Origin: a virus | IMG/VR virus record: IMGVR_UViG_3300043675_000027 | Coordinates: 1-31,779 of that record | Reading direction: 5' to 3' (one strand) | DNA: 31,779 nucleotides | Shown here: in pieces, positions 7,700-31,434 of the stretch | Position numbering within the stretch: the first letter of the stretch is position 1 | Layout of the letters: each line of letters begins with the position of its first letter | Notes under the pieces: model-generated | Seen by the model: only the letters and a program-made list of their open reading frames with translations | Databases searched by the model: none | What the model was told of the DNA's origin: nothing | Translations under genes and position numbers: made by a program

Positions 7700-7746
7700 G
7701 AATTCCTCTGCTATTTCGTGGCTATCATATCGCTCGAGTGATTGAA

Positions 7747-10662: not shown

Positions 10663-13600
10663 GCAATCGCCTTCTTGGTGATGGAGGCCCCGTTGCGAAC
10701 AGCCTCGCGCTCTAGCTGCGCTTGTCGGTTGATGTTCTCCTCCTCGTCAGCGTTCGCGGTCGCTCGGTAGATATCCTCGACGACTCGCGCGCTGTCGTTC
10801 AGCAGCGCTTGGCCAGTCGCGGTGGCAAGGCCCAGGCGATAGGCCTGGCTCACCTTCAGCATTCGCCAGTCGTGCGGCGTGATGCGGATGCCGATGTACT
10901 GCTTCGAACGGTCACCGATCCGTTGGGTGATAGTCCTCGTGAGCATCTTCAGGCCGCGGTGGTCTTGGTCTGCGCTCATGCCCTTGCGTGTGCCGCCGTT
11001 CATCGCGCAGCGGATGAAGACCCACTCGGTCTTTTCCGCCCCGGGGATCGTCGGACGGTAGACCTGCAGCCATTCGCGCAGCGGAGCAGCGTGCTCCTCG
11101 GGGATCACCATATCGACGTCTTGGGCGTAGTCCCAAATCCAATTTTTGAACTCCCCCTTGGAGATACGCAGCCGCACGGTGCCGTCCTTCGCGATGGTGA
11201 TGTTATGACCGATGCGCAGGTTCGAGACGTTCTCAACGCGCAGTGGGAGCCAGGTCAGTAGTTCAAGGATCGCGATGTACTGCACGTCGAGCGCTCGCCA
11301 CACGGGTGACGACGGTGGCGCCATCCTCTGCCGCCATACGTCAATCAACCGATAGAGCACCGCCGCTGGATGCTTGGCACGAAGGAACAGCGACAGCCGC
11401 TTCGCGCGGCTGACCTTTTGTTTTACTATCTTGCGCACCGCTTTGGGAAACTTCCCACGGAAGTTGAGAAGTTTTTTCGAACACCAGTCGTCCCAGGCCT
11501 CACGCGAGACTTCAGGAACTTCGTGTTTTAACAGGTCGTAGTGTGTCCGCACGAAGCTGTACGATTTGTTGATCATGTTGTTGCAGAAGATCAGAAATTG
11601 CTGCATCGAGTCCGAGAGCGTTTTCTGATCGACAGGGACAGACGGCGGCGGAACTTCACCGCGAGCGATTGCCCTTTGGCGGACCTCTTCCACTCTCCAC
11701 GCGTCCTCGTCGTAGCTGCGGGACCGGGTCCACCGGAAGTACTTCCTGAGATAGTGGAGGTTGAGGCAGTGAGTGAACTTGATATCCGATGGCTTGAGAC
11801 CCATGCCGTAGAGCAGCCTATCTTCCCACGCCATGCTCTCCCAGTGGCCCCAGCCTTTTGGTGGCAGCGGCAGCATCAGGAAGCCAAAAAACCCACCGAG
11901 TGCCTCCATGCGTTTCTTGATGCTCGCGTCCTTGTGCCACACCTCCCAAGGATCGAGAGTGAAGAACTCCTGGGTTCCGTCTGGCATGTCAACGGTGTGC
12001 TCGGCCAGCCTCTTGTGATCAACGAGCGCGTCGAAGATACGACGGAGGTGCTCTGGCCATTTGTCGTAGAGCCAGCGATACTCGTACTCGCACAGCTTTG
12101 CGTTGTGGCGAGTCCAGAACGGGGTAATCTCGTCTTCGGAGAGTTCGTCCGCAAGCAGCGGTGTCGCGTCGGTTTGCATACGCGACGTCAGCACGCCTTT
12201 CGGGAGACTGAGTGCCTTCTCGAGCGCCACAACTTTATCGAAGCTTTTGGGCGACGGGTACTTAAGCCGCGCTGCCCAATGATAGCTCGATTCGCCTGCG
12301 ATCTTCCGCAGATCATTCGGCAGCAGCCCCTTGCGATCGATGATCACAGCGAAGGCGTCGCAGAAGTCGGCCGGTAACTCGGAACTCATGCTCCATGCCC
12401 GATAGGAACGCTGCAGCCGGTAGAGCTCGATGCGGCGGTTCTTCCACGTCTTCTCCGGTAGATCTTTCGTGCTCGCGATCTCAAGCTCGGTGAGGCGACG
12501 ATCGAACTCTGGTGAGAGGAACTCTGGGCCGATTAACGCGCTCGCCGCTGGCTTCTTGGGCATCGAGTCGAGCCACATCCGAAGTGCAGCATCGCGATGG
12601 CTCCGAGTTTCCTTGCCAGGAGGGTTCTCCTTGTTCACGCGTTCGAGCAGATCGCAGTACCGCAGCTGGAGCACGACCCCGGTCTCATCCAGCGGCTTGA
12701 TCACCGGACGGGGCAGGGGGTGCGTCGGGTCCCACGTGCGTCTCTGTATCGCGCGCGACGTCAGGGTGCCTTCTGGGAGACCCAGCCTGATCTCGAGCGC
12801 TTTGAGCGTCGGTACGTTCTCCTTGCGCGTCTTCGGCGCTACGCCGCCCAAGGCCCACAAGTACGCGCGCTCGTGTATTGCGCGCAGATCACTTGCAATG
12901 AGACCGCGTCGGTTGAGGACTTCGGCGAGACAGTCCGCAAAGCCGGTTGGGAGATCCATCCACTTGCTCGCATCCTGCTCTGGATGCGGCTCGGGTCGCG
13001 GCAACTGCTTCGCGCCCGGCTTGCCGACCCGCGCTTCGAGGACTTCCAGGCGGGACACGAGCATCCCCTCCGGAAGGTTCAGCTCGTGCTCAATCTTCGT
13101 GGCGGCCGTCCCGGTTGTGCGAAGCCTCGGCACGTACGTACCGTCGTTCCAGGCTCGGATAAGGTTCGAGGACACGATGTGATGCAGATCGAACGGCAGC
13201 TTGCCGCGCCTTTCGATCACCTCGAGAAGCGCTTCGACGAAGTTCTTTCCTTCCAGGTCCGCTTCCCACGTAGCTGCATCCTGGTTCGGATGGGGTTGGG
13301 GTCGCGGCTTTTTGCTCTTGCCTTTCCCTCCCAAGTTCGTGACGCGCTTTGAGAGCAAACCTTCGGGCAGATTGAGGTGCCCCTCGATCTTCTGCAGCAT
13401 CGGCAAACTGCGTGGCAGTGCCGGCCCCTTTTTGACTTTTCCGCGGTTGGCGCACGCCCAGTTGCAAGCGGTGCTACCGACTCCCTTCATGTCCACGGGC
13501 ACTAGGCCGCGGCGACGGATCACTTCGCGGTAGGCCGTGGCGAAGTCACCAGGCAGCTCGGTGTCCCACGTGCTCGCGTCCTGGTTCGGATGCGGCTCCG

Positions 13601-14033
13601 GCCGGTGCTTTTTTGTCTGATACATCAGCGGTGGCGGCGGCCACGGCTTGCGCCGCGCTTTCGAGTGCTCCTCGAGTTTCACGCGCGACCCGAGCAGCCC
13701 CTCGGGTAGGCGGAGTGCCTGCTCGAGCTTGGCGACGTTCTCCAGGCTCTTCTGCCGACTCGGCGTGTTCTTGCCAATCGCCCAGAGGTAATGGGATCCG
13801 AAGTTCTCCCCCGGCCCGACGAGATCCGCCGGTACCATGCCGCGGCGCTTGAGCGCCTCCTGCAGTGCTGCCGTGAAGTCCTGGGACAGCTCGGTGTCCC
13901 ACGTGCTCGCATCCTGGTTAGGGTGCGGTTCTGGTCTGCGTGTCTGGTAGTGACGCGCATGCCTGGTTTTCTGTTGTTGCTCCGCGCCAACGACTTGCAC
14001 GTCGGTCGCAGAGGCGATGCCGTTCTCTAGCAC
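10641..14033 (-). CDS. Giant tyrosine recombinase with five HTH-like repeats
   Basis: An 1130-aa protein. The C-terminal 220 residues show a tyrosine recombinase fold: Arg932 in LPLRVENV, Lys959 in ISKGEFKN, H1054-x-x-R1057 in HDWRML, and the nucleophile candidate Tyr1089; the usual second His/Trp before the Tyr is not evident (N/D there). The N-terminal part holds four repeats of about 85 residues (33-118, 144-231, 244-329, 346-428), each opening with RPxPHPxQDA and ending LPEGxLxSR, plus a fifth, more distant copy (553-619) without the RPxPHP opening. Each repeat resembles an XRE-like HTH. Typical recombinases are 300-450 aa with one arm-binding domain. The GTG start has GGAG five bases upstream. 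It heads the operon with the primase-helicase gene. Function inferred: a recombinase recognising an extended multi-site DNA target. Confidence 0.8.
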   Translation of the reverse strand: MLENGIASATDVQVVGAEQQQKTRHARHYQTRRPEPHPNQDASTWDTELSQDFTAALQEALKRRGMVPADLVGPGENFGSHYLWAIGKNTPSRQKSLENVAKLEQALRLPEGLLGSRVKLEEHSKARRKPWPPPPLMYQTKKHRPEPHPNQDASTWDTELPGDFATAYREVIRRRGLVPVDMKGVGSTACNWACANRGKVKKGPALPRSLPMLQKIEGHLNLPEGLLSKRVTNLGGKGKSKKPRPQPHPNQDAATWEADLEGKNFVEALLEVIERRGKLPFDLHHIVSSNLIRAWNDGTYVPRLRTTGTAATKIEHELNLPEGMLVSRLEVLEARVGKPGAKQLPRPEPHPEQDASKWMDLPTGFADCLAEVLNRRGLIASDLRAIHERAYLWALGGVAPKTRKENVPTLKALEIRLGLPEGTLTSRAIQRRTWDPTHPLPRPVIKPLDETGVVLQLRYCDLLERVNKENPPGKETRSHRDAALRMWLDSMPKKPAASALIGPEFLSPEFDRRLTELEIASTKDLPEKTWKNRRIELYRLQRSYRAWSMSSELPADFCDAFAVIIDRKGLLPNDLRKIAGESSYHWAARLKYPSPKSFDKVVALEKALSLPKGVLTSRMQTDATPLLADELSEDEITPFWTRHNAKLCEYEYRWLYDKWPEHLRRIFDALVDHKRLAEHTVDMPDGTQEFFTLDPWEVWHKDASIKKRMEALGGFFGFLMLPLPPKGWGHWESMAWEDRLLYGMGLKPSDIKFTHCLNLHYLRKYFRWTRSRSYDEDAWRVEEVRQRAIARGEVPPPSVPVDQKTLSDSMQQFLIFCNNMINKSYSFVRTHYDLLKHEVPEVSREAWDDWCSKKLLNFRGKFPKAVRKIVKQKVSRAKRLSLFLRAKHPAAVLYRLIDVWRQRMAPPSSPVWRALDVQYIAILELLTWLPLRVENVSNLRIGHNITIAKDGTVRLRISKGEFKNWIWDYAQDVDMVIPEEHAAPLREWLQVYRPTIPGAEKTEWVFIRCAMNGGTRKGMSADQDHRGLKMLTRTITQRIGDRSKQYIGIRITPHDWRMLKVSQAYRLGLATATGQALLNDSARVVEDIYRATANADEEENINRQAQLEREAVRNGASITKKAIACSNSIK
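12750..13937 (-). repeat. DNA encoding four tandem HTH-like repeats of the recombinase
   Basis: Four units of about 85-90 codons, with variable spacers rich in Lys, Arg and Pro. The first two units are nearly identical at DNA level around the RPEPHPNQDA boundary (about 13559-13600 and 13895-13935), which points to relatively recent duplication. A fifth, diverged unit lies at about 12177-12377. Confidence 0.8.
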
Positions 14034-15234: not shown

Positions 15235-16641
15235 TTATTGGTTCCCTACGCTGACCCGTCGTCCACGCCGCTTGGCCGCCTTGCGACGACTCACACGACG
15301 GGTAGGGCGAGGCTCAATTGATTGGAGACGGGCGGGTATCTCGGTCAGGGACTGTTTGCCGCGAGGTCTCGGCCCTTTTAATTGAATTCCCGTCTGCTCC
15401 AATATCCATGCTTCGTATCGGACATGCCAAACCCGCAGCAGATCAATGGGCTTAAATTTATAGTGTATGTCCCCTGTTGTCTTTGGCGCGTGCCCGACGA
15501 TCTGATCGATGATTCCGGCGGGAATGACCAGCCACTCTGCCAGGCTGATAAATGTTCGGCGCAGGGCCTGCAGCGTGACGTGGGGGAGTTTCGCCGTCAA
15601 AAGCGCCTGATTGTGCGCGATTCGTGGCTCGGAAATATGTCCGGAGTCCGCCGTCGTGCTCGAGAATACCCATTGGTTCTCGCGCGGTAATGTGCTGAGT
15701 AGCGAGGACACATAAGGCGTCAGCGGGATGATGCGGCCCTCTTTTGAGACCTTATCCTTCACCCACAGGGTGCGCCACGTAAAATCGACGTGCTCCCAGC
15801 GCAGTTCAGCTATTTCCGTCCGACGAGCACCGGTGAGCAAGAGCGATTGCAGGTACGCACTGATGACGAGGTTGGGGATAGCGCGCACCGCAGAGAACCA
15901 CGCTTGCAGTTGCGTGGTCTGCAGCACATCGGATTTGTGGGTTTTACGCTTGGGAATCTCAAGTAAGAGGTCCTTATCTTCGATGACGCCAAGATTCACA
16001 ACGGCTTTATAGGTCTCGTGCGAGCCGGACCAAGCCCAAAACGCTTTGAACAGCTCAAAACCTTGGCGGGCTTTATTGGCGCGGGGGCCGGATTCCGCTT
16101 TCACCCATTTCGTTAAAATGGTGGCGGTGATGTCCACCATGCGATAGCGCATGAGCGGGTAGAGGACCCCCGGTCTCGTAAGGCCTTTACCGCGTTTCTT
16201 CGCTACCCCACCGGTTTGAGAGAGGTTACGGTGATCGCGCAAATGCCGCGCTCCCCACGTGGTGGCGTATTGTTCTAGGTAGGCAGTCCATACGTCACCC
16301 ACTAACACGGATTCGGTCGCTTGACGAACACGGTCGGCCTCGGCCACGGCCTGTTGCTCTTCCCGCACTGTGCGCGGATGGATGCCTTTGTCAGTCAGTG
16401 TCTTGAGCTTCGTGGCTTCGGCTCGCGCCTCTTTCAACGTCCAGGTTTTAATGTCGCCGATGGTCTCGCGCACGGTTTTGCCGTGAAGCGTGGTTTCGAA
16501 GATATACGACCGTGCGCCGCCCGCCGTCACACGCAGTCCGAGACCGGGCGTCGCCTTATCCTGGTACAGGGTCTGCTTACCGCGGCCGGGCACGAATGCG
16601 AGAGACGGGACCCGCTTGGCAGTAAAGTGTTCTTGGGGCAT
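15235..16641 (-). CDS. int: Phage-type tyrosine integrase
   Basis: A 468-aa integrase. The N-terminus has the DUF4102-type arm-binding region (RVPSLAFVPGRGKQTLYQDKA split by a turn, then TPGLGLRVTAGGARSYIFE), followed by a core-binding domain and a catalytic domain: R273 in TGARRTE, K300 in VSKEGR, R361 in LQALRRTF, H384 in IVGHAP and Y394 in DIHYKF. The position normally His in HxLR is Gln358. The C-terminal 45 residues are an unusually basic tail. The gene starts 166 bases from the tRNA-fMet fragment, the standard layout for an integrase beside its own attachment site, so it most likely inserted the left element there. No strong ribosome site precedes the ATG. Confidence 0.93.
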   Translation of the reverse strand: MPQEHFTAKRVPSLAFVPGRGKQTLYQDKATPGLGLRVTAGGARSYIFETTLHGKTVRETIGDIKTWTLKEARAEATKLKTLTDKGIHPRTVREEQQAVAEADRVRQATESVLVGDVWTAYLEQYATTWGARHLRDHRNLSQTGGVAKKRGKGLTRPGVLYPLMRYRMVDITATILTKWVKAESGPRANKARQGFELFKAFWAWSGSHETYKAVVNLGVIEDKDLLLEIPKRKTHKSDVLQTTQLQAWFSAVRAIPNLVISAYLQSLLLTGARRTEIAELRWEHVDFTWRTLWVKDKVSKEGRIIPLTPYVSSLLSTLPRENQWVFSSTTADSGHISEPRIAHNQALLTAKLPHVTLQALRRTFISLAEWLVIPAGIIDQIVGHAPKTTGDIHYKFKPIDLLRVWHVRYEAWILEQTGIQLKGPRPRGKQSLTEIPARLQSIEPRPTRRVSRRKAAKRRGRRVSVGNQ

Positions 16642-16807: not shown

Positions 16808-16859
16808 CGTCGGGCTCATAACCCGAAGGTCGCAGGTTCAAATCCTGCCCCCGCTACCA
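16808..16859 (+). other. tRNA-fMet(CAT) 3' fragment, probable att site
   Basis: From the anticodon stem (GTCGGGCTCATAACCC) through the variable loop and T-arm (GGTTCAAATCC) to the terminal CCA, this matches the 3' half of a proteobacterial initiator tRNA. The acceptor and D-arm halves are absent upstream, so it is a fragment and not a gene. tRNA 3' halves are the classic core of integrase attachment sites. The orientation places the integrated element on its left, making this the distal att site, with the intact tRNA expected beyond the left edge of the window. Confidence 0.85.
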
Positions 16860-18412
16860 TCTGTTCCTACGCCGCGTAGCAGCGCGGCCGTTTGCAGGTT
16901 CCAGTGGGCGACAAGCCCGCCATTCTCATCGGGAACCAGCCGAATCTTCCCCTCGTAGGCCTCGCGCAGGATCACCCGCGCTTTGAGCGATGCCCGCGAG
17001 CAGCCGCCGAGCGCTGCGGTAATCTCCCGCCGGGCGGTCTGCGCGGCCCGGGGCAGCATGGCAAGCACCTTGGCCGAGTGTTTCGCCGCCGGCTGCTGAT
17101 CGAGAAGCGCCTGGCGCTTGCCCTCGGCCCGGTCGATCGCGGCCTGTAGCTCATCGGCGGGCATGTCAGGATCGCCCGCCTTCAAGCGCTCACGCAGGCG
17201 GGTGATACGGGCGCCGAGTTCCTGCAGCTCGCGCGGCGCCTCGATGGCCTGGGCCTCCAGAGCGCGGCTGCGCTCCAGGAAATAGGCCTGCATATCCTGG
17301 GTGATCTGCTTGATGCTCTGCGGGGCGAGCAGATCGCTCCGTAGCCGACCGACCATGACATCCTCAACGCGGGCCCGCCGGATCCGCACGCCGTTGCTGC
17401 AAGCGCTCATCCCGCCGTCGCGGTGGCTAGAGCAGCCGTATTCCGCGCCATTGACTCCGATGTAGTGCGCGTCACAGACATCGCAGCGCAGGAGCCCCGA
17501 TAGCAGGTACTTCGGTTTCCCGCCGCTGCGGATTGACCGTGGATCGTGCGCCGGGCGCAGGCGCCGCTGCGCGCGGCTGAAAAGCTCGTCCGAGACGATG
17601 CGTAAACTCTCATCGCTGCGCGTGATCCATTCGGACCGCGGCCGCGCGATGCGCTGTCGCTTGCCGGAATCCGGGTCTTTTCGCCATTCGCTCGTGTTCC
17701 AGTGGATCAGGCCGCGGTAGCGCTCATTGCGCACGATCACACGCACGCCGCTGCCCATCCATCCCGAAGCCCGCCGAGTCGTACGGTTCCAACTGCTACC
17801 GGGGGAGGGGATACGCCGCGCGTTCAAGTCCGCGGCGATCGTGCGCGTCGAGGCGCCGTCGGCGAAGCGTCCAAAAATCTCCTGCACGATGGCGGCCTCG
17901 CCCGGGTCCACCTTGTCATCACGGTATCCATACGCGCGCCCGCCCGTGGGGCGCTTGTCCCGCGCGCGCGTCTCCAAAGCGGTGAAGGTCCGGGCGCGAA
18001 TCATCTCGATGAACTCGCCGCCCATGATGGCGGACATGCCGGCCTGCATGCGGGCGGTGCGCGCCGATGAATCAAAGCCGTCCTGCACGCCGATGATCCT
18101 CACGCCCCGGAATCGGAGCCGCGAAACCAAGGGCGGCAGATCCTCACTGCGGGCCAGGCGATTAAGGTCACACACCAGCAGCACCTCGAAGCCGCCGGCA
18201 AAGCCTGCCTCGCGCATGCGCAGCACGCCCGGACGATTGCCGAGCGCAGAACCGCTGATGCCCTCGTCCTCGAAGCGCTCGGCGATGCGCCATCCTTGCC
18301 TCTCGGCGTATTCGGTGCAGACGCGCACTTGGTCGGCGATCGAGCTGTCCGTTTGCCGGTCGGTGGAGAATCTGCTGTAAATTGCTGCTTTCACTGGCGC
18401 GTGGCCCATCAC
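16838..18412 (-). CDS. Large serine recombinase
   Basis: A 524-aa recombinase. The N-terminal resolvase domain has catalytic Ser16 in YSRFST and the arginines of DLNRLARSEDL. Next come the recombinase domain (GYRDDK to about residue 250), a zinc ribbon (C-x2-C in RCDVC, then Cys in YGCSSH and SACSNG), a coiled coil (about 375-430) and a C-terminal basic segment. The ATG at 18412 overlaps the upstream gene's stop. Oddly, the last seven codons and the stop lie within the tRNA-fMet fragment, so the C-terminus is partly encoded by the attachment sequence. It is likely the integrase of the right-hand element; its own crossover site is not proven. Confidence 0.92.
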   Translation of the reverse strand: MMGHAPVKAAIYSRFSTDRQTDSSIADQVRVCTEYAERQGWRIAERFEDEGISGSALGNRPGVLRMREAGFAGGFEVLLVCDLNRLARSEDLPPLVSRLRFRGVRIIGVQDGFDSSARTARMQAGMSAIMGGEFIEMIRARTFTALETRARDKRPTGGRAYGYRDDKVDPGEAAIVQEIFGRFADGASTRTIAADLNARRIPSPGSSWNRTTRRASGWMGSGVRVIVRNERYRGLIHWNTSEWRKDPDSGKRQRIARPRSEWITRSDESLRIVSDELFSRAQRRLRPAHDPRSIRSGGKPKYLLSGLLRCDVCDAHYIGVNGAEYGCSSHRDGGMSACSNGVRIRRARVEDVMVGRLRSDLLAPQSIKQITQDMQAYFLERSRALEAQAIEAPRELQELGARITRLRERLKAGDPDMPADELQAAIDRAEGKRQALLDQQPAAKHSAKVLAMLPRAAQTARREITAALGGCSRASLKARVILREAYEGKIRLVPDENGGLVAHWNLQTAALLRGVGTDGSGGRI

Positions 18413-19966: not shown

Positions 19967-20119
19967 ATGGCTTATTTTTTGATGCTTACGCGCGACGAGC
20001 AAGCCGCGGCGATTCGACGGCTGTCGAGCTCCGGCATGTCCGATTATGGGATCGCCAGCGCTACCGGGTTAGCTGTCGAGCATGTCCGCGCAATCCTCGG
20101 CGATCGTGGCGCGGCGTGA
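19967..20119 (+). CDS. Small HTH-like protein
   Basis: A 50-aa protein from the ATG at 19967. A GTG at 19937, overlapping the previous stop, would add ten residues. The sequence EQAAAIRRLSSSGMSDYGIASATGLAVEHVRAIL is a classic minimal HTH, with SDYGIASATGLAVEHV as the helix-turn-helix proper. Its stop overlaps the GTG start of the ATPase gene (GTGA), so the two are translated together. It may be a loader or regulator for the replication gene, by analogy to phage and plasmid early operons; that role is inferred from position only. Confidence 0.65.
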   Translation: MAYFLMLTRDEQAAAIRRLSSSGMSDYGIASATGLAVEHVRAILGDRGAA

Positions 20120-21345
20120 GGGTGCACGCTGACAAAAATGGTGTACTGCTTCGCTATTCGACGGACGGGGTACCGCCGGAGAAGCTTAAAATGTACACGC
20201 TCGAAACTGACCCCGAACTCGCGGAAATGGTGAGAGAGGGGAAGGCGCTAGGCTTCGGCGCTGCCGCGCCAGAACTTCCACCGCTCGAGGTCTATCGCGA
20301 TGAACCTGGCGCGAGCGCTGCGAATGCCGTAGAGCCATTTCCGGTTGCGGCGCTCGATGAGATATCCGATGAGGTGCGGGCGCAGATTGTGCAAAACGTT
20401 TTCGAGGTGGGAACCGTTGCGGTCATTGCTGGTGCCCCGAACACCGGCAAAACGTTTCTTGCGGTTCACCTCGCCGTGCACATGGCGGCGGGCGAATCCT
20501 GGTTTGGTTGCAAAGTGTCGGGCGGCCCTATCCTGTACGTCGCCGCGGAAGCACCCGGTAGCGTGAGGACACGCGCGCGACTCGCCGCCAGCCAGGGATT
20601 CGCAAACAAGCGCCTGCCGTTCTACGTGATGAGCCACGCGCCGGGACTCGGCAGTGAAATCGATAGTCCTGGCGACACGCTGCGGCTCATAGCGACCATT
20701 CGCGCGGTTTCCTCAATCGAGGGAATGGAAGTCAAAATGGTCATTATCGACACGGTGGCAAGTGTGCTGGCGGATGGCGAGGAAAACGCTGACGGCATGC
20801 TGCGGCTCGCCGGATCCGCAAAATTCATCGCCGCAGAAACTGGCGCAGCGGTCACTCTGGTGCATCACCCCTCGAAGGGCGATCCGACCAGCCTAAGAGG
20901 ACATAGCAGTCTCGCGGCAGCGGTCGACACCATCCTGTCGATCACTATGGACGACAACACCGGCATTCGGGCTGCAACGCTGACGAAATCCCGCGACTCG
21001 GCGGCCGGCCGGCAATTCTTTTTCAACCTGGAAGCGGTCAAATTGCCGACGCTCGATTCCTTCGGCGATCCGCGCACCAGTTGCATTGTGATCCCGGTCA
21101 CTGTCCCGCTATCGCAGCGCCGTCGACCCGGCGGCAAGGCGCAGGAGCAACTGCTCAGCGAAATCGAACGTCGCTATCGAACCGGCGAGACCCACATGGA
21201 CGAGGCCGCGATCCGCAAAGCGGGCCACGGTTTGGGTATGCATCGGAATTCGATACCGAAAGCGCTCAAGGGTTTGCGCATTTCCGGGTTCGTAGTCGGC
21301 GAGGCGGCACGGATCACCCTCAAATATCCGCCGGAATCAACATGA
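20116..21345 (+). CDS. RepA-like RecA-fold replicative ATPase/helicase
   Basis: A 409-aa protein. Residues 95-300 form an AAA_25/RepA-type RecA domain: Walker A GAPNTGKT (106-113), the YVAAEAPGS segment (141-149), Walker B VIIDT with D212, and the VHHPSKG loop (249-255), a signature of this family in plasmid RepA-like and phage helicases. The last 80 residues look like a winged helix (EAAIRKAGHGLGMHRNSIPKAL). Such proteins are hexameric helicases or origin ATPases. The GTG start overlaps the previous stop. The array of TGCA sites begins right at the end of the gene, suggesting an origin controlled by it. It belongs to the right element and is distinct from the primase-helicase at 7747. Confidence 0.88.
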   Translation: MRVHADKNGVLLRYSTDGVPPEKLKMYTLETDPELAEMVREGKALGFGAAAPELPPLEVYRDEPGASAANAVEPFPVAALDEISDEVRAQIVQNVFEVGTVAVIAGAPNTGKTFLAVHLAVHMAAGESWFGCKVSGGPILYVAAEAPGSVRTRARLAASQGFANKRLPFYVMSHAPGLGSEIDSPGDTLRLIATIRAVSSIEGMEVKMVIIDTVASVLADGEENADGMLRLAGSAKFIAAETGAAVTLVHHPSKGDPTSLRGHSSLAAAVDTILSITMDDNTGIRAATLTKSRDSAAGRQFFFNLEAVKLPTLDSFGDPRTSCIVIPVTVPLSQRRRPGGKAQEQLLSEIERRYRTGETHMDEAAIRKAGHGLGMHRNSIPKALKGLRISGFVVGEAARITLKYPPEST

Positions 21346-21472
21346 TGCACACGTTGCACACCTCTGCACACCTCTGCACATGTGCACATAGGTGCATCGG
21401 TGCAAGGGGGCACTGCACCCAATGCACACGTGCACCACCCCCCTTTAGGGGTGTGCACGGTGTGCAGGTGCA
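21346..21472. repeat. Array of 13 TGCA sites, candidate origin or operator
   Basis: TGCA starts at 21346, 21355, 21365, 21375, 21383, 21393, 21401, 21414, 21423, 21431, 21454, 21463 and 21469, mostly 8-10 bp apart, close to one helical turn. Many read TGCACA, and GCACATGTGC forms a 10-bp palindrome. A hairpin with arms GTGCAC(C)ACCCC and GGGGTGTGCAC spans 21430-21458. It lies immediately after the RepA-like gene. Probable binding array for a DNA-binding protein. Confidence 0.7.
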
Positions 21473-21599: not shown

Positions 21600-21624
21600 A
21601 TATCGGGACCCCGATATTTTTCTT
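21600..21624 (+). terminator. Rho-independent terminator
   Basis: ATATCGGG, two bases, CCCGATAT, then a T-tract (TTTTT, C, TTT). It closes the replication transcription unit before the small gene at 21673. A weaker hairpin (GCCGGG/CCCGGC) lies at 21523-21539. I see no firm gene in 21346-21672; a 49-codon ORF at 21507-21656 runs through this terminator. Confidence 0.65.
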
Positions 21625-21672
21625 TGCAGCAAATCGATGCGAAATCATGCAGTTAATCGAAAGCATCAACCG

Positions 21673-21951
21673 ATGACCCGCTCCAGCGCTCACCTGGTCG
21701 TCTATGGCCCGATACCACACCCGAGGGAATGGCTGATCGCGGCCGATGAATCGGCGCCGGCTGGGTATCTCAAGCTCGCCAGTCTCAGCATCGCACCTCG
21801 CACGGCGGCAAAAAATCCGGGCACCGACTTGGTTTCGAGCCAGGATATCGAGGCGCTGCCATCGCATATCGAGCGTCTGTTACGGGCCTACGCGCGGCTC
21901 GACTCCGCGGGGCGCGTTGAACTGATTCGTCTCGCGGAGCAACTCGCATGA
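21673..21951 (+). CDS. Hypothetical protein, 92 aa
   Basis: Unrecognised protein. From the ATG at 21673 the N-terminal half is mixed (SAHLVVYGPIPHPREWLIA) and the C-terminal part is a clear helix pair (IEALPSHIERLLRAYARL, GRVELIRLAEQLA) resembling the end of small regulatory proteins. No strong ribosome site is visible; an upstream start at 21589 would run through the terminator and is unlikely. It is the first gene after the terminator, so it probably has its own promoter and may be a late-gene regulator, by position only. Confidence 0.55.
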   Translation: MTRSSAHLVVYGPIPHPREWLIAADESAPAGYLKLASLSIAPRTAAKNPGTDLVSSQDIEALPSHIERLLRAYARLDSAGRVELIRLAEQLA

Positions 21952-22057: not shown

Positions 22058-22885
22058 ATGAACATAAACAACCTAAGAAAAGTCCAACTGCACGGCGCGC
22101 GCGTTGTCACTGACGGCGGCCACATCGCGATTCACAGCGCGAGTCGAGCGTACGGGTTCGGCAGCCCGCCCGCCGGTTTCCAAGAAAACACCGACTTCAC
22201 TGCGGAAACGGCGACAAAGCTCGATCCGGCCGCACGGGAGTTTGTCGACGATCCGGTGAGCCTGGCTTCGTCGCGCGCCATGCTGGCGTTACCGTCGCTC
22301 GACTATACGACGCATCAGATCGTCAACGACGCACGCCTGTCGCCGGCCGGTCGCGCAGAGAAACTCAAAGAACCACGCGTGGCTGCGATCAAGACGATTG
22401 CGACGGTGGCGGCGGAAGTGGGCAAGCATGGCCAAACGCTCAGGGCGCGCGAAGCGCAGTTCTACGCGCCGCCGAAGCTCACCAACGATGTACAGGCGGG
22501 TCTCGAGGATCGCGAGGTGCGCGACCACTGGCGCGCCCTGCCCGTAGGTCAACGCATGTCATCGCTTGAAGGAATGGCCCGCGGCCAAGATGACCGAACG
22601 CTCGAGGCGCTGGTGCGCAGTCCGGTGGCAATGGAGCCCAACGAACGCGAACTCATCCGCAACGCCTGGGTTAAGACTGCTGAGAAGCGCAAGCCCAAGG
22701 AAGCGGCCGAACTAAAAGCCGCCGTGGCAGTTCATGAATGGGCGGATAGCGTGGTCAAAGCCGCTGCGCAGTATTCGGCGCGTGCAACCGGATTGACGCC
22801 CGCCGAAATTACCGAAGCCGCGCGCGGTACGGGCGGCGAAGGCATTTTCTTCAATAGTGGGCTGCGCGCCGTCGACGCGGCGTAG
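22058..22885 (+). CDS. Hypothetical phage protein, 275 aa
   Basis: Starts the late block, with AAGGA eight bases before the ATG. The protein is helix-rich with no recognised domain: residues 50-120 and 140-250 are charged amphipathic helices (REVRDHWRALPVGQRM, KKRKP-like AEKRKPKEAAELKAAV). There is no transmembrane segment or signal. The layout before a scaffold-like coiled-coil protein and the tape measure suggests a virion or assembly role, but nothing confirms this. It is followed by the next gene after a 10-base gap containing a GAGGG ribosome site, so both are in one operon. Confidence 0.7.
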   Translation: MNINNLRKVQLHGARVVTDGGHIAIHSASRAYGFGSPPAGFQENTDFTAETATKLDPAAREFVDDPVSLASSRAMLALPSLDYTTHQIVNDARLSPAGRAEKLKEPRVAAIKTIATVAAEVGKHGQTLRAREAQFYAPPKLTNDVQAGLEDREVRDHWRALPVGQRMSSLEGMARGQDDRTLEALVRSPVAMEPNERELIRNAWVKTAEKRKPKEAAELKAAVAVHEWADSVVKAAAQYSARATGLTPAEITEAARGTGGEGIFFNSGLRAVDAA

Positions 22886-22895
22886 GCGAGGGCTC

Positions 22896-23630
22896 ATGCT
22901 CAAGTACGAAGTCCCGGACCTCTCGCAAGTCGCCGAAGCACTCCGCGGCTGCTACGAAAAAACCGAAGCCGGCGCCTATCGCCTTGCGCTCGATGGCTAT
23001 GAGACGCCAGAGCAGTTGCGCGCCGGTCTTGCTGCTGAGAAGGCCGCCGCGCGTGCCGCAGTTGCTGAACTCGCTCGACTGGAAAAACTGGCGGCAGAAT
23101 CCGCCACGCGCCTGGCTGAACAGGAACCGGAGGACGCCCGGCGAAAGGCTGAGCAGGAAGCGCAGCTCAATCGCCAATACGAGCAGGAAAACACTCGCAA
23201 GCTAGCCGAATACACGGCGAGCAAAGAAGCAGAAATTAGCAGCCTGCGCGCGGATCGCAACCGCGTCGTTCTTGAACATGCCGCGCTCAATATAGCCGCC
23301 AAGCTGGCGCGCGCTGAATACGTCGCAGTGCTGCTGCCACACATTGCCGAGCGTCTCGAAGGTCGCGAAGAAGGCGGCGTGTTTTCCGTGCACGCAAAGG
23401 ACGCGCCCGATCTTGACGCGCTGGCCGAGCAGTTCCGCGCGGATAAGCGCTTCGAGCGAATCATTGTTGGCGCATCGCCCGCCGAGAAAGCACGTCACGC
23501 CGCACGCGTCGCGGAAACCCTTGGCGTGAAGGCTGCACAGCAACCCATCACGCGCAAGCAGTTTGAATCTCTGCCACCCGAACGACGCGCCGAAAGTGTG
23601 CGCGCTGGTACAACAATTCTTGACGGTTAA
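22896..23630 (+). CDS. Coiled-coil phage protein, scaffold-like
   Basis: A 244-aa protein. After a short N-terminal domain, residues about 45-125 are an uninterrupted coiled coil rich in Ala, Glu, Arg and Lys, followed by a compact domain and a C-terminal ITRKQFESLPPERRAESV ending. That ending resembles a motif common at the C-terminus of phage structural or scaffolding-type proteins (ITRxQFxxLxPxxR). The ATG at 22896 has GAGGG four bases upstream. It lies between the 275-aa protein and the tape measure. It could be a head scaffold, capsid accessory or tail assembly factor; none is proven. Confidence 0.65.
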   Translation: MLKYEVPDLSQVAEALRGCYEKTEAGAYRLALDGYETPEQLRAGLAAEKAAARAAVAELARLEKLAAESATRLAEQEPEDARRKAEQEAQLNRQYEQENTRKLAEYTASKEAEISSLRADRNRVVLEHAALNIAAKLARAEYVAVLLPHIAERLEGREEGGVFSVHAKDAPDLDALAEQFRADKRFERIIVGASPAEKARHAARVAETLGVKAAQQPITRKQFESLPPERRAESVRAGTTILDG

Positions 23631-23645
23631 TTACGGAGCGATGTT

Positions 23646-26600
23646 ATGAGTGAATCAACCGAAGTCGCGGGCCTAAAAATTGCGGTCGATGCGACCAGCA
23701 CCGATAAGGCATCCGTCTCTCTCGATAAATTCACCGCCTCGGCGGCGCGCGCCAACACGGCGACCACGGCGCTCGGCGCGACGTCCAAAACCATCGCCGC
23801 GCAGACCGCGCAGATGGCGAGCGCCTACGCAGATGCGGGCCGCGCAGCGCAAGCCGCCTCAACGAACCTATCGCCCCTGACTGCGCGCATCAAGGAACAG
23901 GTCGATCTGTTCGGCAAATCGCCGGTCGAAGTCGCCAAGTATCGGGCAGGTCTGGCAGGACTGAGTCAAGAAGAAACGGCGCTGTACGTAGGTTACGCTA
24001 AGCGTTTGACGGCACTACAGGCCGCAGAAGCGGCATCAAAGGCTGCCGCCAAGGCGGAAGACTCGCTGGGTAAGGCAGTGCATGCGGGTGGACAAGCGGT
24101 ACAAGTTAGCTCGCTGCAAATCCGTGAAAGTCTTTCGATTCTGCGTGACATAGGGTCGGGTCGCTATTCACGTATCCCAGGATCGTTCTCGATTCTTGCG
24201 CAACAGGGGAATCTCGCCGCGCTCGCCATGAAGGCGTTGTCGAGCCCTTTGGTTGTTGCCGGCATCGCGGCGACCGCTACGGCAGCGACTGTGGGCGTAC
24301 TCGCGTATCAAGCTGAGAAAGCCGCGGAATCAATCAAGCTCATCGGGACCGCGCTCACCGCGACCGGCAAGAGTGCGCTCGTCTCCGATGATCAGATCCG
24401 CCAGACCATCGACCTGATTCAGCAATTGCACGGCGTCAATCGCGCGGACGCTACTTCATCGGTAGATGCGTTGGTCCGTGCGCCGTTCGCCAATGTGGAG
24501 CAGTTCAAGGAGGCCGCATCGATTCTCGGCGATCTTGCGGCGGCACTCGGTGTCAAAGTACCTGACGCCGCGAAAGTGTTGTCTGGAGCGCTAGAAAGTC
24601 CGATTCAAGGATTGCGCAGGTTACAGCAAGCGCATATTGCGCTCACGCCAGATCAGCAGTTGCTGATTGAGCGCTTGCATGATGAAGGCAAGGAATCTCA
24701 AGCCGCAGCGGCGCTGATCGATGCCTTGCAGGAAAAAACGAAGGGGTTGGCACAGCAGAATCTCACGCCGCTGCAAACCTCGATTCAAAACTTGGGCAAT
24801 GCCTGGCATGGCGCATCGACGCAGTTCTCAGAGTCATCAGTGGTCAGCGGTGTGCTTGCCACACTGACCGGATCGTTCAACGCCATGGCGAAGGCCATCA
24901 ATGCGGTACGCGACGGCAGCAAGGGTCTGGATGATACCTTTTCCGCCATATTCGCCAATCCGGCGATTACCGCCATTCTTCCCGGTCCACTGCAGGCATT
25001 GGCCGGCAGGGCGCAGACCACGGCGGGAGGCCCAGGCCGCGTCACGACCAGCACCGGCCTTGCGGCGGCGAAAGCGGCGGCAGACGCTGCGGAAAAAGTG
25101 GCGACGGATAAGACCGCTGCTGCCTTCGCGCAAGATTTCGATCGTGTGGATCAGTTGACTCGTGGCCTCAAGTCACAAGCAGCCGCCACCCAAGAATTGA
25201 TCCTCAAGCGTAAGGAACTGCAGGCGGCGCTGAACACCAAGGGCGAGATAACCGAACCTGCGCAGCGTGCCGTGTTTCAGGATCGCATCAAGGCCATCAA
25301 CGAGCAATTGACGAAGAAAGATGACGGCGGATTCGCGGCGAAGAAATTGGAGTTGTTGCAGTCTCTAAACAAGGCGCAAGAGGAACTGACCGCAACCACC
25401 AATGGCACGACACTCGCGGAAGATCGCGGCGTCAAGGCGACGCAGACATGGCTCGATAACAATCAAAAAGCGCTCAAAATCAGCGAGGCGACTAAAGCGG
25501 TTCTATTGAGCATCGCCGCTGCCGCGGATAAAACGAATGAAGCGAATAAGGTTGCGCTAGAAACGATTGCAATCAAACAGCGCACCGAAGGCGTGCAGTC
25601 GCAAATCGATCGCCTCACGGGCAACACTGCGGATTCGCAAGTTGAAGCCATTCACAAACAATTCGATGAGCCGCTGCGCAAGGATCAGGCATCTGCAGAT
25701 GAAGTTCCCGCATTACAAGCCGAGGTCGATGCTGAAAAGAGCAAAGTCGCTGAACTGCTAAAGGTGGCGCAGGCCGCCAACGAAGTTCTGCAGATTGAGA
25801 AGGCAATCAGCGTATCCGAAAAGGCCAACGCCACGGTGTCAAAGACCGTGCAAGTCGAGGAAGCGGCCGGGTTAATCTCGCACGCTGCGGCTCAGCAGAA
25901 AATCATCGCCGCTAACGACGCTGAAGCTGAATCACTCGCAAAACAGATACCGATCTACCAGGCATTGGCCGCTGCGCAAAGCGGACCGGCGGCCGATGCG
26001 TACCGAGAAAAAATCGGTGAGCTAAGCCTCAAGATCCTTGAGCTTAAGACGCATACGAGCGAACTGACTGCGGCGCTGAAGGGCGCCTTTGAAAGCTCGG
26101 TGTCCTCTGCGCTCGATGGCGTGATCGAGAAAACTGAGACGGCCAATCAAGCGGTAAAGAATATCGAGAAGTCCTTAGAGCACGCCTTCGTCTCGACGTT
26201 CACCAAGGGCCTCGTCAACGATCTGAGCACGTCCATTTTCAGCCCGCGCACCGCTCCAGGCGGCGCGCAGCAGCCCGGCGGCTTTGCAGGCGTGCTGCCG
26301 TCGGTGGCCGGGTTGTTCGGCATCAAACCCCCTGCGACTGGCGTTGCCGGCGCCACCGGTATCGCGGGTGCGGCGGCCAGCGCGGCTCCGATCTCTGCGG
26401 CATTCACGGCAGGCTCAACCACGGTGTCGACGGCCTTGGGCGCATCCTTCGCGAGCGGCGCGGCCACCTTGGCGAGCGCCATTACCGAGTCGCTGTCCGG
26501 CGCGAATCCCACCAATGTCAGCGGGGGCGATTTGGGCCCGCTGTTTGGCCTCGATGGCGGTAGCTCTGCGGTCTCAGGGATCATCCCTGATTTATCTGCG

Positions 26601-27764
26601 CAAGCCGAAGCGGCGACAGCGCCAACCTTTGATGTAGGCGGCTATACCGGCAATGGCAGCAAATACCAACCGGCAGGCGTCGTGCACGCGGGTGAGTTTG
26701 TGCACCGCGCAGAAGTCGTCAGGCAACCAGGCGCAATGTCATTCCTCTCGGACTTCAATGACCGCGGCATGCAGGCGGTCGCCACATATGCGGGCGGCGG
26801 GTTGGTCGGTCCGGTCAAGAGCATCGATACGTTGCCGGCATTGGCTGCATCCGCGTCGTCCGCGTCGGCGCGCAACGGTGTTGAGCAAGTCGGCGCGACC
26901 ATCAGCACGGCGTTGAACACGGGCGGCCAGCAGGCCGGCAGTACGCTTACCGATGCCGTGGCGCAGGGCGGCGTGCAAGCTGGGCAAACCATCGCCAATT
27001 CGATAGCGCAAGCGAGCCAGCCGGGCACTGGCTTGTCCGCAGGCGGCAGCAACACCTACAGCAAGACCAACAACGACAAGGGCATTTTCGGCCTGGTGAT
27101 GGCCCTCGCAGGCATTGCGACGAAAGGGCTCAAAGCACCGTCGAGTAGCGCGGGTCCGGACTTGACCGGCGGGGCGATCGCCGCAACTGCGCCGGCGCTG
27201 GACTCAAGCACCATTTCAGGCCTTGCCTCGACGAATCCACCTGGGTATGCGCCCGGCGGCTACACCGGGGACGGCGGCAAATACGAGCCTGCCGGGATCG
27301 TCCATGCAGGCGAATTCGTGCATCGCGCGGAAGTAGTGCGCCAGCCGGGAGCGATGCAGTTCCTCAGCGCCTTCAACGACAAGGGCATGTCGGCGGTGTC
27401 GTCGTGGGGCGCGCGCGGGTATGCCTACGGAGGGCTCGTCTCTGCGCCGCCGCTGGCACGCATTGGCGAATCGATGGACTGGCGACCTGCAGCGGGGGCG
27501 AATGCCTACTCGGTTCCTAGGACCTTTACGGCGCCTGGGTATGCTGACGGCGGCATCGTGTATCCGGCAGCCCCACCCAGCGCGAGCACGCCGGTCGTCT
27601 CGATACCGCAGACCGGGCAGGGCTCTGGAGGGCAACCCGCGCCACGCTACGCCGGCCAGGGCGCCCCTACCGCGGTCAATTTGGTGCTGTCGCCGGAAAT
27701 GGCGCACACGACGGTCGCTGACCTTATCGATCGCCATCTCAACGATTCGTTTGCGAAGCGCTGA
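23646..27764 (+). CDS. Phage tail tape measure protein
   Basis: A 1372-aa protein that sets tail length and is packed in the tail tube of siphophages. Residues 50-140 match the lambda gpH-type N-terminal region, with alanine-rich helices. A hydrophobic segment lies at about 200-221 ([21 protein letters not shown]), long helical repeats extend to about 900, and the C-terminus carries the gpH-like GGYTGxGxKYxPAGxVHxGEFV motif twice. Start: GGAG seven bases before the ATG. Its length would correspond to a tail of roughly 200 nm by the usual 1.5 angstrom per residue rule. The expected tail tube and chaperone genes upstream are not seen, and terminase genes follow, an unusual order. Confidence 0.93.
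26637..26780 (+). repeat. GGYTG domain repeat, copy 1, within the tape measure gene
   Basis: Encodes 48 residues from [14 protein letters not shown] to FNDRGMQAV. The second copy at 27255-27398 encodes the same 48-residue unit with about a dozen substitutions. Both contain [19 protein letters not shown]. Confidence 0.85.
27255..27398 (+). repeat. GGYTG domain repeat, copy 2, within the tape measure gene
   Basis: The same 48-codon unit as 26637-26780, 618 bases downstream and in frame. Synonymous changes are frequent, so the duplication is not recent or has been under protein-level selection. Confidence 0.85.
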
Positions 27765-27795
27765 TTTGTCATTCAATCCTAACGGGAGAACGAAA

Positions 27796-28182
27796 ATGGT
27801 TCGCGATGTTGAATTTGAAAGTTTTGTTTTATGGCTTTGGCCAAAGTATCAGCAAAGTGACGAGGCGGGCGCGGTCTCGCGGCACGTACGGGCGCGTGCG
27901 TTCCCGGCGCATGTCTTCTCAGATCCAGTCGCATTGCAGGCTGATCTCAACAACAATATTAGTTTTGCAAGTGAGAGCGCGCCGGATCACAGAATCCCGC
28001 TACAGGGAAATGTCGGGTTTGTTCCATCATTGGCCAATTGCGCGTCCGCACTCGCCGCAGCCCCCATCGATCAGCTCTCTTGGGCCGACTTCGCCACGCT
28101 GCACACAAGCATTCTGCATTTTGGTCCCGATTGTTCGATGACCCAATTCAACACGGCACTGGCGCAGTTCAGAGCATCGTAG
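27796..28182 (+). CDS. Hypothetical phage protein, 128 aa
   Basis: Unrecognised protein between the tape measure and small terminase genes. The ATG has GGGAG seven bases upstream. The N-terminal third is helical and aromatic (ESFVLWLWPKYQQS), the middle is mixed (FSDPVALQADLNNNISFAS), and the C-terminal helix is TQFNTALAQFRAS. Its TAG stop is directly followed by the ATG of the terminase gene, so the two are co-translated or closely packed. A DNA-packaging accessory or tail protein are both possible; nothing decides between them. Confidence 0.65.
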   Translation: MVRDVEFESFVLWLWPKYQQSDEAGAVSRHVRARAFPAHVFSDPVALQADLNNNISFASESAPDHRIPLQGNVGFVPSLANCASALAAAPIDQLSWADFATLHTSILHFGPDCSMTQFNTALAQFRAS

Positions 28183-28680
28183 ATGCTCCAGTCCTCTCCC
28201 GACGCGCCGCGCCTCGTTCCTGCCGCCGGCTCCCTTGGCGGGCAGCCGCGCAAGGAACCTCCGGCGGATGCTGCGCATCACATTCGCAGCTTTGCCGGCG
28301 ACGGTTTTTCGATCGTCGGCATCAGCGAAAAATTCGGGATCGATCGAAAAACGTTAGAGCGATGGCTGGCCGATTTCCCGGAGCTGCGCGAGGCGTTCGA
28401 TCGAGGGCGCGAGAAAGAGCGGCACTCGTTGCACAATCGTTTGTATCGAATCGCCATGGAATCCGATGACGAAAAAACGGCGGTCTTGGCGGCGACAGTT
28501 ATTCTCAATTCGCGGCACGGCTACCGTCGAGACGATCAGGGCGAACAGGCGAGTCGTGTGAACATCACGTTCAATCTGCCGGGCGCTCTGTCGCGCGAAG
28601 AATTCATGAAAACGGTGAGCATCGATGAGCAACGAACTGACGACGAGCCCGTTCCAGGAACGGGTCTTGTCCGTACCTGA
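28183..28680 (+). CDS. terS: Putative small terminase subunit
   Basis: A 165-aa protein. Residues 35-75 form an HTH (GFSIVGISEKFGIDRKTLERWL), as in DNA-recognition domains of small terminases, followed by a helical region (REKERHSLHNRLYRIAME, KTAVLAATVILNSRHGYR) typical of the oligomerising core. The C-terminal tail includes REEFMKTVS. It overlaps the large terminase start by 56 bases, the usual arrangement for the pair. The subunit selects phage DNA at the pac or cos site and delivers it to the motor. An HTH regulator is the alternative, but the overlap strongly favours terminase. Confidence 0.8.
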   Translation: MLQSSPDAPRLVPAAGSLGGQPRKEPPADAAHHIRSFAGDGFSIVGISEKFGIDRKTLERWLADFPELREAFDRGREKERHSLHNRLYRIAMESDDEKTAVLAATVILNSRHGYRRDDQGEQASRVNITFNLPGALSREEFMKTVSIDEQRTDDEPVPGTGLVRT

Positions 28681-30010
28681 AAGCGCCGATATTTTCTTGG
28701 GCGGCGGTCGCGGCGGCGGTAAAGATTACGCCATCGCGTTTTTGATCCTGCGCCACATGGAGCAGTACCGCGCTCGCGCCCGCGCGCTGTACTTGCGCAT
28801 GACGTATCAAGGACTCGCAGACTTTGAACTCATCTGCCGGGAAATCTTCGGCATGATCTATGGGGGTGGGGCTAGATACAACGCGAATGATCATGTCTGG
28901 CGATTCCCCGGCGGCGGCTATTGCGAACTGGGTCAGCTCGACTCGCACGCTGCGTACGCGTCAAAACAAGGTCGATCGTTCACCCTGCTCATCGTGTCCG
29001 AGGCAGGCCAATACGCATCCCCCGATTTGCTCGACCTGATGCGCTCTAACTTGCGCGGCCCGAAGGAAATACCGCTGCGCATGGTGGTCGCTGCGAATCC
29101 GGGCGGTGTCGGCCATCATTGGCTCGCGCGCCGCTATGTGTTTCGCGCGAAGCCGTGGACGCCGTTCATCGAGGAGAAGAGCAAACGCGAGTGGGTGCAC
29201 GCGCCGAGCACTTATCTCGACAATCCCCATATCGATCAGGCCCAGTATCGCGCGCAGCTCGAGAGTGCAGCACCATCAGACCCTGAACTGTTGCGCGCGT
29301 GGCTTGAAGGCGATTGGGCAGTTGCACGCGGCGCCTATTTTGCGGCTTGCCTTGAAGAGTCGCGCAACGCGGTCGGTCCATTCGACAAGGTGCCGGTCGA
29401 TCGCTTCGGCGAGTGCTGGCGCACGTGGCTTAGTCATGATTTCGGCAGTTCCGCGCCATCCGTCACGCAACTCATGGCCGAATCTCCTGGCCAGGAAATT
29501 GACGGTCGATTCTATCCGCGTAAATCAATTGTGGTGCTCGCCGAACTGGCCGCGCACCGTCGCGACGATTTGAGTAAGGGTCTCGGATGGACCGCGAAAG
29601 TCACGGCCGAAGCCATACGCTCGGAGCTGTGCGCAAAATGGAAAGTCCCAGCTCAAGGCTGTGCCGATGACGCCATCTTTGCGCGCATGGGTTCCTCTGC
29701 AGGCAGTATCTCGGACGAGTTCGCCGCGGCCGGCGTGACGTTTCAGCCAGCGCGCAAAGCCGACAGAATCAGCGGCTGGCAAAAAATGAAGCGCATGCTC
29801 GCCGACGCTGGGAAGCCCGATGTCCCCGGGCTATACGTGTCGCGAGACTGCGAATATTTTTGGGCGACGGTGCCATATCTCGCACGCGATCAGCGGCGAG
29901 TTGAGGACGTGGACTCATCCGGCATCGATCACAGCGCCGACTGTTCTCGATATGGAATTTTGTATGAGCGTCCTGTAACGGGCGCTGTCGGCATCGGCTT
30001 CGCAATGTAA
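28625..30010 (+). CDS. terL: Large terminase subunit
   Basis: A 461-aa packaging motor that cuts concatemers and translocates DNA into the prohead. The ATPase half has Walker A GGGRGGGKD (26-34), Walker B LLIVSEAG with Glu126 (Ser replaces the more usual Asp), and the coupling motif VVAANPGG (154-161). The nuclease half shows acidic residues at D272 (SHDFGSS), in LAELA (near 307) and at D348-D349 (CADDAIF), in keeping with the RNase H-like fold. The domains look complete and uninterrupted, so it is probably functional. The start overlaps the small terminase gene by 56 bases. A portal gene would normally follow; instead there is a putative virion surface protein. Confidence 0.93.
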   Translation: MSNELTTSPFQERVLSVPESADIFLGGGRGGGKDYAIAFLILRHMEQYRARARALYLRMTYQGLADFELICREIFGMIYGGGARYNANDHVWRFPGGGYCELGQLDSHAAYASKQGRSFTLLIVSEAGQYASPDLLDLMRSNLRGPKEIPLRMVVAANPGGVGHHWLARRYVFRAKPWTPFIEEKSKREWVHAPSTYLDNPHIDQAQYRAQLESAAPSDPELLRAWLEGDWAVARGAYFAACLEESRNAVGPFDKVPVDRFGECWRTWLSHDFGSSAPSVTQLMAESPGQEIDGRFYPRKSIVVLAELAAHRRDDLSKGLGWTAKVTAEAIRSELCAKWKVPAQGCADDAIFARMGSSAGSISDEFAAAGVTFQPARKADRISGWQKMKRMLADAGKPDVPGLYVSRDCEYFWATVPYLARDQRRVEDVDSSGIDHSADCSRYGILYERPVTGAVGIGFAM

Positions 30011-31025: not shown

Positions 31026-31226
31026 ATGGCTACTGGCGTCAATGTCTCGAAAGCAAACCTCTACGGAGTGCTCGCACCGCCGATCGCGGCCAGCGTCAGC
31101 AAGGCGAACCTGTCTGCGGTGTTGTCGCCGCCGCTAGGCATCGGCGTATCGAAGGCGAATATTTATGCCGTGCTGTCACCCGTGACCGCCAGTGCTCAAC
31201 GGTCGATGGTGCAAGTGTGCGGGTAA
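31026..31226 (+). CDS. SKANLY-repeat protein 1
   Basis: A 66-aa protein built mostly from three imperfect repeats of about 17 residues with the core VSKANLYxVLxPP. The repeats start at about residues 5, 23 and 40. Tandem short repeats of this kind occur in some phage virion or tail-associated proteins. It follows the virion surface gene by 9 bases and is paralogous to the next gene, probably from a local duplication. The C-terminal tail (ASAQRSMVQVCG) is unique. No enzymatic motif. Confidence 0.7.
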   Translation: MATGVNVSKANLYGVLAPPIAASVSKANLSAVLSPPLGIGVSKANIYAVLSPVTASAQRSMVQVCG

Positions 31227-31233
31227 CACAGTA

Positions 31234-31434
31234 ATGGCGACCGGCGTCGATGTCTCCAAGGCGAATATTTACGCAGCGCTCTCGCCCCCGAAAGGCACGG
31301 GGGTTTCCAAGGCCAACCTGTACGCAGCACTCGCGCCTCCCGCTGGCGTGGTCGTTTCAAAAGCCAATCTCTACGCGGTGGTATCGCCGCCAAGTTCCGT
31401 CAAAGGGCGACGCTTGGTCTTCGCGTGCACGTGA
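31234..31434 (+). CDS. SKANLY-repeat protein 2
   Basis: A 66-aa paralogue of the previous protein: MATGVDVSKANIYAALSPP at the start, then two more VSKANLYAxLxPP-type units. The ATG at 31234 lies 7 bases after the preceding stop; a longer start at 31192 would overlap that gene. The close spacing and shared N-terminus (MATGV-x-VSKAN) suggest tandem duplication. It is the last plus-strand gene of the window, before a convergent terminator. Confidence 0.7.
   Translation: MATGVDVSKANIYAALSPPKGTGVSKANLYAALAPPAGVVVSKANLYAVVSPPSSVKGRRLVFACT

Follow-up and report, generated by a model that had tools for sequence, protein, structure and literature searches.

A TGCA iteron array at the 3′ end of a RepA-like helicase gene, a proposed prophage replication origin

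Few temperate phages other than a handful of model phages have a known origin of replication. The RepA helicase of RSF1010 is not known to bind its own origin, and the iterons of this plasmid are bound by RepC. In several iteron plasmids additional iterons serve copy control, and P4 relies on a second site (crr). Published work that mentions this second P4 site (PMC6092414) is also among that describing SaPI Rep, the C-terminal domain of which recognises iterons located directly 3′ of its own gene; the iterons of SaPI and PICI differ between elements (PMC7581432, PMC6092414). In pRN1 (orf56/orf904), a small repressor gene is followed by the gene of a replication protein with a C-terminal winged helix and, just 3′ of it, by the essential origin, which forms a long stem-loop of variable sequence and displays no iteron structure (PMC4234260). 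Vibrio cholerae PLE carry RepA–iteron modules that are matched in specificity and swapped together, and origin-directed nucleases (phage Odn) have been proposed to select for their diversification (PMC8263062). Likewise, the short iterons of geminivirus Rep differ between close relatives while their position and pattern are kept (PMC12548392). A literature search limited to open-licence papers found no published description of the helicase–array module presented here.

The helicase gene and the array that follows it

The window, which is the whole stretch of DNA analysed here, comprises 31,779 nucleotides (31.8 kb) of IMG/VR virus record IMGVR_UViG_3300043675_000027. It encodes phage structural and packaging proteins of its own, namely a tape measure, a scaffold and both the small and large terminase subunits, all located on the right side of the array, with a tyrosine integrase and a serine integrase on the left side. 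By its gene content, the element is a prophage and not a satellite. The scaffold and tape measure genes lie ahead of those of both terminase subunits (22857–30010, plus strand), an order unusual for a tailed phage; among the proteins searched, neither a portal nor a major capsid protein could be identified. Where the phage part begins on the left, the genes of the tyrosine integrase and of the large serine recombinase adjoin (15235–16641 and 16838–18412, both minus strand), a pairing that might represent either two integration systems of a single element or a two-element junction. The block at 6396–14033 (minus strand) has the appearance of a second mobile element next to the phage; it includes a ParA-like gene, a protein of 971 aa that contains a primase/helicase segment (phrog_239) and a protein of 1130 aa in which a PEPHPNQDASTW-type repeat occurs four times and for which PHROG gave no match. 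Elsewhere in the window, the translation of 506–1186 (minus strand) shows a protein with the Fic-like motif HPFSDCNGRSGR, and two small neighbouring open reading frames made of repeated VSKANLYAVLSPP-like units (31026–31226 and 31192–31434, plus strand) are found just 3′ of the phrog_6368 protein.

The gene that precedes the array (20116–21345, plus strand; stop codon 21343–21345) encodes a RepA-like (AAA_25) replicative helicase/initiator of 409 aa. Its description in an earlier note on this DNA, made from the letters alone, as a RepA-like ATPase is borne out by a Pfam AAA_25 match (E 8.8e-33), by a profile match to RSF1010 RepA (1g8y; E 1.7e-17) and by the structural model, whose core (residues 75–328) superposes on RepA and DnaB and aligns to 1g8y with a Z value of 22.7 (r.m.s.d. 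2.3 over 214 residues). The Walker A motif reads GAPNTGKT, with the invariant K112. PDB and Foldseek matches span this core (model residues about 70–332). It is followed in the AlphaFold2 model by a C-terminal domain (residues 341–402; 21136–21321, plus strand) that consists of three α-helices (341–355, 363–372 and 379–390) and two β-strands (393–396 and 399–402) modelled with pLDDT values of about 86–97. In this model the domain is a winged helix like that of the relatives, assigned here to no named winged-helix family, and it is the proposed array-binding domain; its third helix (379–390; 21250–21285, plus strand) is the proposed recognition helix, the matching helix being the one that co-varies most with the repeat in relatives. 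Single-protein scans of viral contigs and genome contigs found no close relatives of the window ATPase, and its best viral profile matches are 38% identical. Just upstream of the helicase gene lies a small putative helix-turn-helix (HTH) protein (19967–20119, plus strand), a rival or auxiliary candidate binder; the open reading frame that encloses it has no family match.

The array (21346–21472), with the consensus TGCACMC, begins at the base right after the helicase stop codon. An exact search recovered all 13 TGCA sites that the earlier note had counted in these 127 bp, with starts at 21346, 21355, 21365, 21375, 21383, 21393, 21401, 21414, 21423, 21431, 21454, 21463 and 21469, where about 0.6 would be expected (151/31779). 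The enrichment is purely local, since the whole window holds 151 TGCA sites and its shuffles a mean of 152, which is chance level. The densest other 127-bp stretch of the window contains 4 sites, the maximum per 127-bp stretch in 200 dinucleotide shuffles of the whole window is 6, and in 1000 shuffles of the array the count never exceeds 8. No second array was detected in the remainder of the window. Spacings between consecutive sites (9, 10, 10, 8, 10, 8, 13, 9, 8, 23, 9 and 6 bp) are mostly 8–10 bp, as had been noted. However, the best periodicity lies near 9.5 bp and not 10.5 bp, so that of the earlier proposal that the sites occupy one DNA face the regular spacing stands while the helical phasing is approximate and the single face holds only loosely.

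The array can be divided into four parts. On the left, four direct iterons (TGCACAC, TGCACACC, TGCACACC and TGCACAT) are placed 9–10 bp apart (21346–21381, plus strand). They are followed by a palindromic iteron, ATGTGCACAT (21380–21389), which is the true 10-bp palindrome announced by the earlier note, and by two iterons of opposite orientation, GGTGCATC and GGTGCAAG (21393–21404, minus strand). The right group (21414–21472) is convergent, with three forward iterons, a GC hairpin and three reverse iterons. This hairpin (21429–21459), also foreseen from the letters, is built around CCCCTTTAGGGG, with the core CACCCCCCTTTAGGGGTG and 12-nt arms formed by the iterons themselves (21429–21440 and 21448–21459; 83% complementary). 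The array folds far better than its shuffles on either strand (z about −4.9), which is expected from its inverted repeats. Its GC content is 0.56–0.60: a GC hairpin, not an AT-rich stretch, separates the right-hand iterons, and no AT-rich unwinding region is found inside the array. The lowest-GC 100 bp nearby (21600–21699, GC 0.49) also hold an intrinsic-terminator-like hairpin with a T-run (21600–21617, plus strand), separate from the array hairpin.

Arrays behind relatives of the helicase

The comparison set, drawn from 80 bacterial genomes, 160 viral contigs and earlier loci, comprises 144 non-redundant helicase genes. If any 7-mer present at least 5 times or 6-mer present at least 6 times within the 330-bp stretch at the gene end is taken as an array, one is carried by 91 of the 144 relatives, against 38 of 2617 control tiles. 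When the region from −520 to +420 bp of the stop codon is considered, including arrays overrun by the reading frame, the count is 115/144, and stretches of equal size located farther upstream and farther downstream give 8/144 and 17/144, respectively. The signal peaks sharply at the gene end and is confined to it, arrays being present in only some 1% of the 320-bp tiles placed elsewhere. The repeated units are 6–8 bp long and mostly 9–10 bp apart. In the typical layout, calculated over the 91 arrays, the first unit starts about 3 bp past the stop codon, the array is 121 bp long and the spacings peak at 9 and 10 bp. Both unit orientations are present in 89 of them and a GC hairpin lies between convergent iterons in at least 29, the arrays often surrounding a CCCCTTTAGGGG-type hairpin as in the window. 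The window array fits every layout item common to those of its relatives.

The unit itself varies by lineage and includes TGCACA, CGTCACA, CGTGACA, CGTTACC, CGTTCCC and CGGACA, among others. Ten phage and plasmid relatives, most of which have an array at the gene end, show the units CTACAAA, GCGTGACA, CGTCACA, GTGCGGCA, GGAACA, TTTGTGAG and TGCGGAA. Judged from these sequences, the conserved feature is the architecture of the array rather than the letters TGCA. The conservation check proposed in the earlier note thus gives a divided result: most relatives have an array at the gene end, and its letters change with the helicase tail. A fixed-gap scan for three spaced TGCACA units returned at least 119 stretches, four of which are arrays that follow a distant RepA-like or prim-pol/RepA-like gene; most of these loci, with no more than three or four TGCA units each, differ in type from the window array. 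A search of viral contigs with CCCCTTTAGGGGNGTGCA, which combines the window hairpin core with one half-unit, gave 20 stretches, ten of them TGCA-rich; nine of these ten lie behind an AAA_25 protein and the tenth is cut off.

With these thresholds no array is seen in 29 of the 144 relatives, some of which have an apparent C-terminal domain. Five of these proteins end at or near the core, seemingly without such a domain, and two of the loci have five CGTAAC units, just under threshold. At seven loci (L133, L135, L137, L139, L141, L142 and L167), the helicase frame runs through the array and the iterons are translated as a repetitive tail, so that in gene predictions the origin would be concealed within the coding sequence. 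In loci with the appearance of Bacteroidota phages, arrays of TGTGTGCA are also found behind a different replication gene (L029:4800–4961, L071:143–321 and L108:1298–1477; also L008, L018, L049 and L062). In the first three loci, the preceding gene encodes a DnaG-type primase of about 1090 aa. The 3′ array layout may extend to other initiator families.

Co-variation in the relatives of the helicase points to the part of the protein that would read the array. Over 4095 pairs of array-bearing genes, repeat similarity is correlated with similarity of the C-terminal domain once the core is controlled for (partial r 0.29, permutation p 0.001) and not with that of the core once the C-terminus is controlled for (−0.04). 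Repeat identity follows the C-terminal winged helix and not the ATPase core. L050 and L072 illustrate this: their cores are 85% identical to that of L294 and the tails are unrelated, and the arrays read TTGCACA and GCAACA, respectively. Within one alphaproteobacterial clade, the five of 346 alignment columns that best track repeat change are 317, 321, 320, 315 and 311 (reference numbering), all located in or next to the third winged-helix helix of the L152 model (331–347, offset 19). In this clade, a threonine at residue 317 goes with CGTCAC in 12/12 cases and a glutamine with CGTGAC in 8/9, the exception being the distant L189, which has Q with C. Methionine goes with CGTAAC (4) or CGTCAC (2), and K, R or V with CGTTAC in 6/8, K being found with G in the distant L195 and L196; helices of the TAFHK type go with CGTTCC. 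The correspondence thus fails in distant members (L195/L196 and L189).

On a tree built from the core only, Q/T and G/C switches agree in all four independent pairs located on supported branches; such sister pairs are few (4 to 5), and the phylogenetic sign test alone is not below 0.05. Switches are seen in separate lineages, and L143/L310, L163/L333, L140/L157 and L125/L305 are among the sister pairs that differ in their repeat. L152 and L154, whose helix reads RTAF, have a sister protein with RQAF in L320. A held-out set was provided by loci whose arrays had been missed earlier since the reading frame runs through them. Those with a known helix type carry the predicted repeat in 8/8 cases (label permutation 1 in 280), the eight loci being mutually related and so not eight independent trials, and the V rule deriving from one earlier case. 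A ninth held-out locus has a new residue, A, with CGTTGCC.

A proposed origin and its alternatives

Taken together, the array is real, looks functional and is more general than first supposed. It is very probably an iteron-type prophage origin, bound by the upstream-encoded helicase via its own C-terminal winged helix. The earlier suggestion of iteron-like origin sites behind the ATPase gains support from the arrays of the same layout behind most relatives and from their co-variation with the winged helix; as for the binder, evidence in relatives favours the 409-aa ATPase over the small HTH proteins. The winged helix would attach the RepA-like helicase to the TGCAC(A/C)C repeats, and the protein would assemble on the array, where the right-hand repeats face each other across the GC hairpin. 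Unwinding would then start with an opening near the hairpin or in flanking DNA, and the rest of the replisome would join. For this locus we infer DNA binding, helicase loading and origin activity; that the winged helix of the window protein reads TGCAC is suggested by homology of layout and fold.

The repeats might instead form an operator array, at which the small HTH protein (19967–20119) or another repressor controls transcription across the junction between rep and the downstream genes, with no replication role. Such a small HTH-like protein does precede the helicase gene, HTH-type regulators are annotated upstream of the helicase genes of some relatives, and promoters of the downstream genes could lie in the array. 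This explanation is nonetheless unlikely: a separate repressor would not predict that the repeat co-varies with the helicase's own recognition helix in relatives, sites at a gene 3′ end with a central hairpin are unusual for an operator, and no promoter-like site was found on the array. It is also improbable, to a similar degree, that the array is an auxiliary helicase-bound site serving copy control, incompatibility, partition, or primase or single-strand initiation, with the true origin elsewhere. The lack of an AT-rich region in the array, the ParA-like gene in the left part of the contig and the precedents of iteron plasmids and P4 crr are consistent with such a role. However, no further array was found in the window, the relatives show arrays in about 1% of tiles off the gene end, and the corresponding 3′ site is the origin in SaPI/PICI and pRN1 (PMC6092414, PMC7581432, PMC4234260).

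A terminator or RNA structure, that is, a strongly folding 3′ untranslated region that ends or protects the rep transcript, was rejected as highly improbable. The sequence does fold well as RNA on either strand, but folding is a by-product of one unit repeated in both orientations, the array hairpin has no directly following T-run and is not needed as a terminator because a separate terminator-like hairpin lies at 21600–21617, no Rfam match was found for the array, and an RNA role would not explain why the units vary together with a DNA-binding domain. Chance or a functionless microsatellite expansion, which the two perfect tandem copies of TGCACACCTC at the left end might suggest, can be dismissed almost entirely, a microsatellite having been named in the earlier note as a refuting outcome: shuffles never come near 13, Tandem Repeats Finder detects few copies (on the left 3.6 for a 10-bp unit, on the right 2.5 for a 9-bp unit), the units occur in both orientations with varied spacers, and the arrangement recurs at the gene end behind most relatives (115/144) with different units.

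If the array is a helicase-bound origin, each lineage could have its own repeat because an adjacent initiator and site can change together. We lean, with some reserve, towards a broader proposal: RepA-like (RecA-fold) phage helicases would constitute a large, undescribed class of self-recognising initiators, whose winged helix reads a private repeat at the end of their own gene. A few recognition-helix residues would form a readable code for the fourth base of CGTNAC (T for C, Q for G, M for A, and K or V for T), and the repeat, repeatedly re-specified, would set origin specificity and perhaps the compatibility of co-resident prophages. Were this correct, sequence alone would suffice to annotate an origin along with its initiator in hundreds of prophages, from Pseudomonadota and other groups, and the code in the recognition helix would provide a natural data set in which DNA-binding domain and site change in step. 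It would also offer a testable basis for phage–phage incompatibility or for the evasion of nucleases directed at origins, which has been proposed for PLE satellites (PMC8263062).

Comparison with described initiator–origin modules

The proposed mode of action resembles that of the rep–ori modules of SaPI and PICI, in which an initiator helicase gene is followed directly 3′ by an origin of short iterons, with reading by a C-terminal domain, as proposed here. The window shares this arrangement by position, its array starting at the base after the stop codon and its origin role being predicted, and it shares the multiple short iterons, with 13 TGCAC-type units in 127 bp. C-terminal iteron recognition is suggested by co-variation in relatives and by the winged helix of the window model, no close relatives having been found in the window's own lineage. 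Despite this common layout, the initiators are distinct: SaPI Rep and SCCmec Cch2 are satellite helicases of the D5/DUF927 type, whereas the window encodes a RecA-fold, RepA/DnaB-like prophage helicase that matches AAA_25 and RSF1010 RepA and is not of the D5, DUF927 or Primase_Cterm type. The origins differ as well, since those of PICI contain two iteron sets around an AT-rich region, in place of which the window has a GC-rich array with a GC hairpin. The window array is therefore not classified with SaPI and PICI: the helicase belongs to another class, there is no AT-rich core, and the element is not a satellite but a phage.

With RSF1010 RepA, the window protein shares the core fold and family, its RecA-type core being related to 1g8y and carrying a Walker A motif; it differs from it by the additional C-terminal winged helix. 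The resemblance to pRN1 concerns gene order and the stem-loop just 3′ of the replication gene, the long fold of the window array (z −4.9) following here from inverted repeats. The pRN1 initiator, however, combines prim-pol and SF3 helicase and acts without iterons, whereas the window has iterons and a RepA-like helicase with no prim-pol domain, although some relatives possess one. The PLE modules likewise pair matched initiator and iterons, but PLE RepA is a RepA_N protein with N-terminal DNA binding and not a helicase, and its iterons are about 30 bp long. Geminivirus Rep is a rolling-circle protein of single-stranded DNA plant viruses, unrelated to the window helicase and with iterons upstream of its gene. 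Together, PLE RepA with Odn and geminivirus Rep represent parallels for the diversification of iterons.
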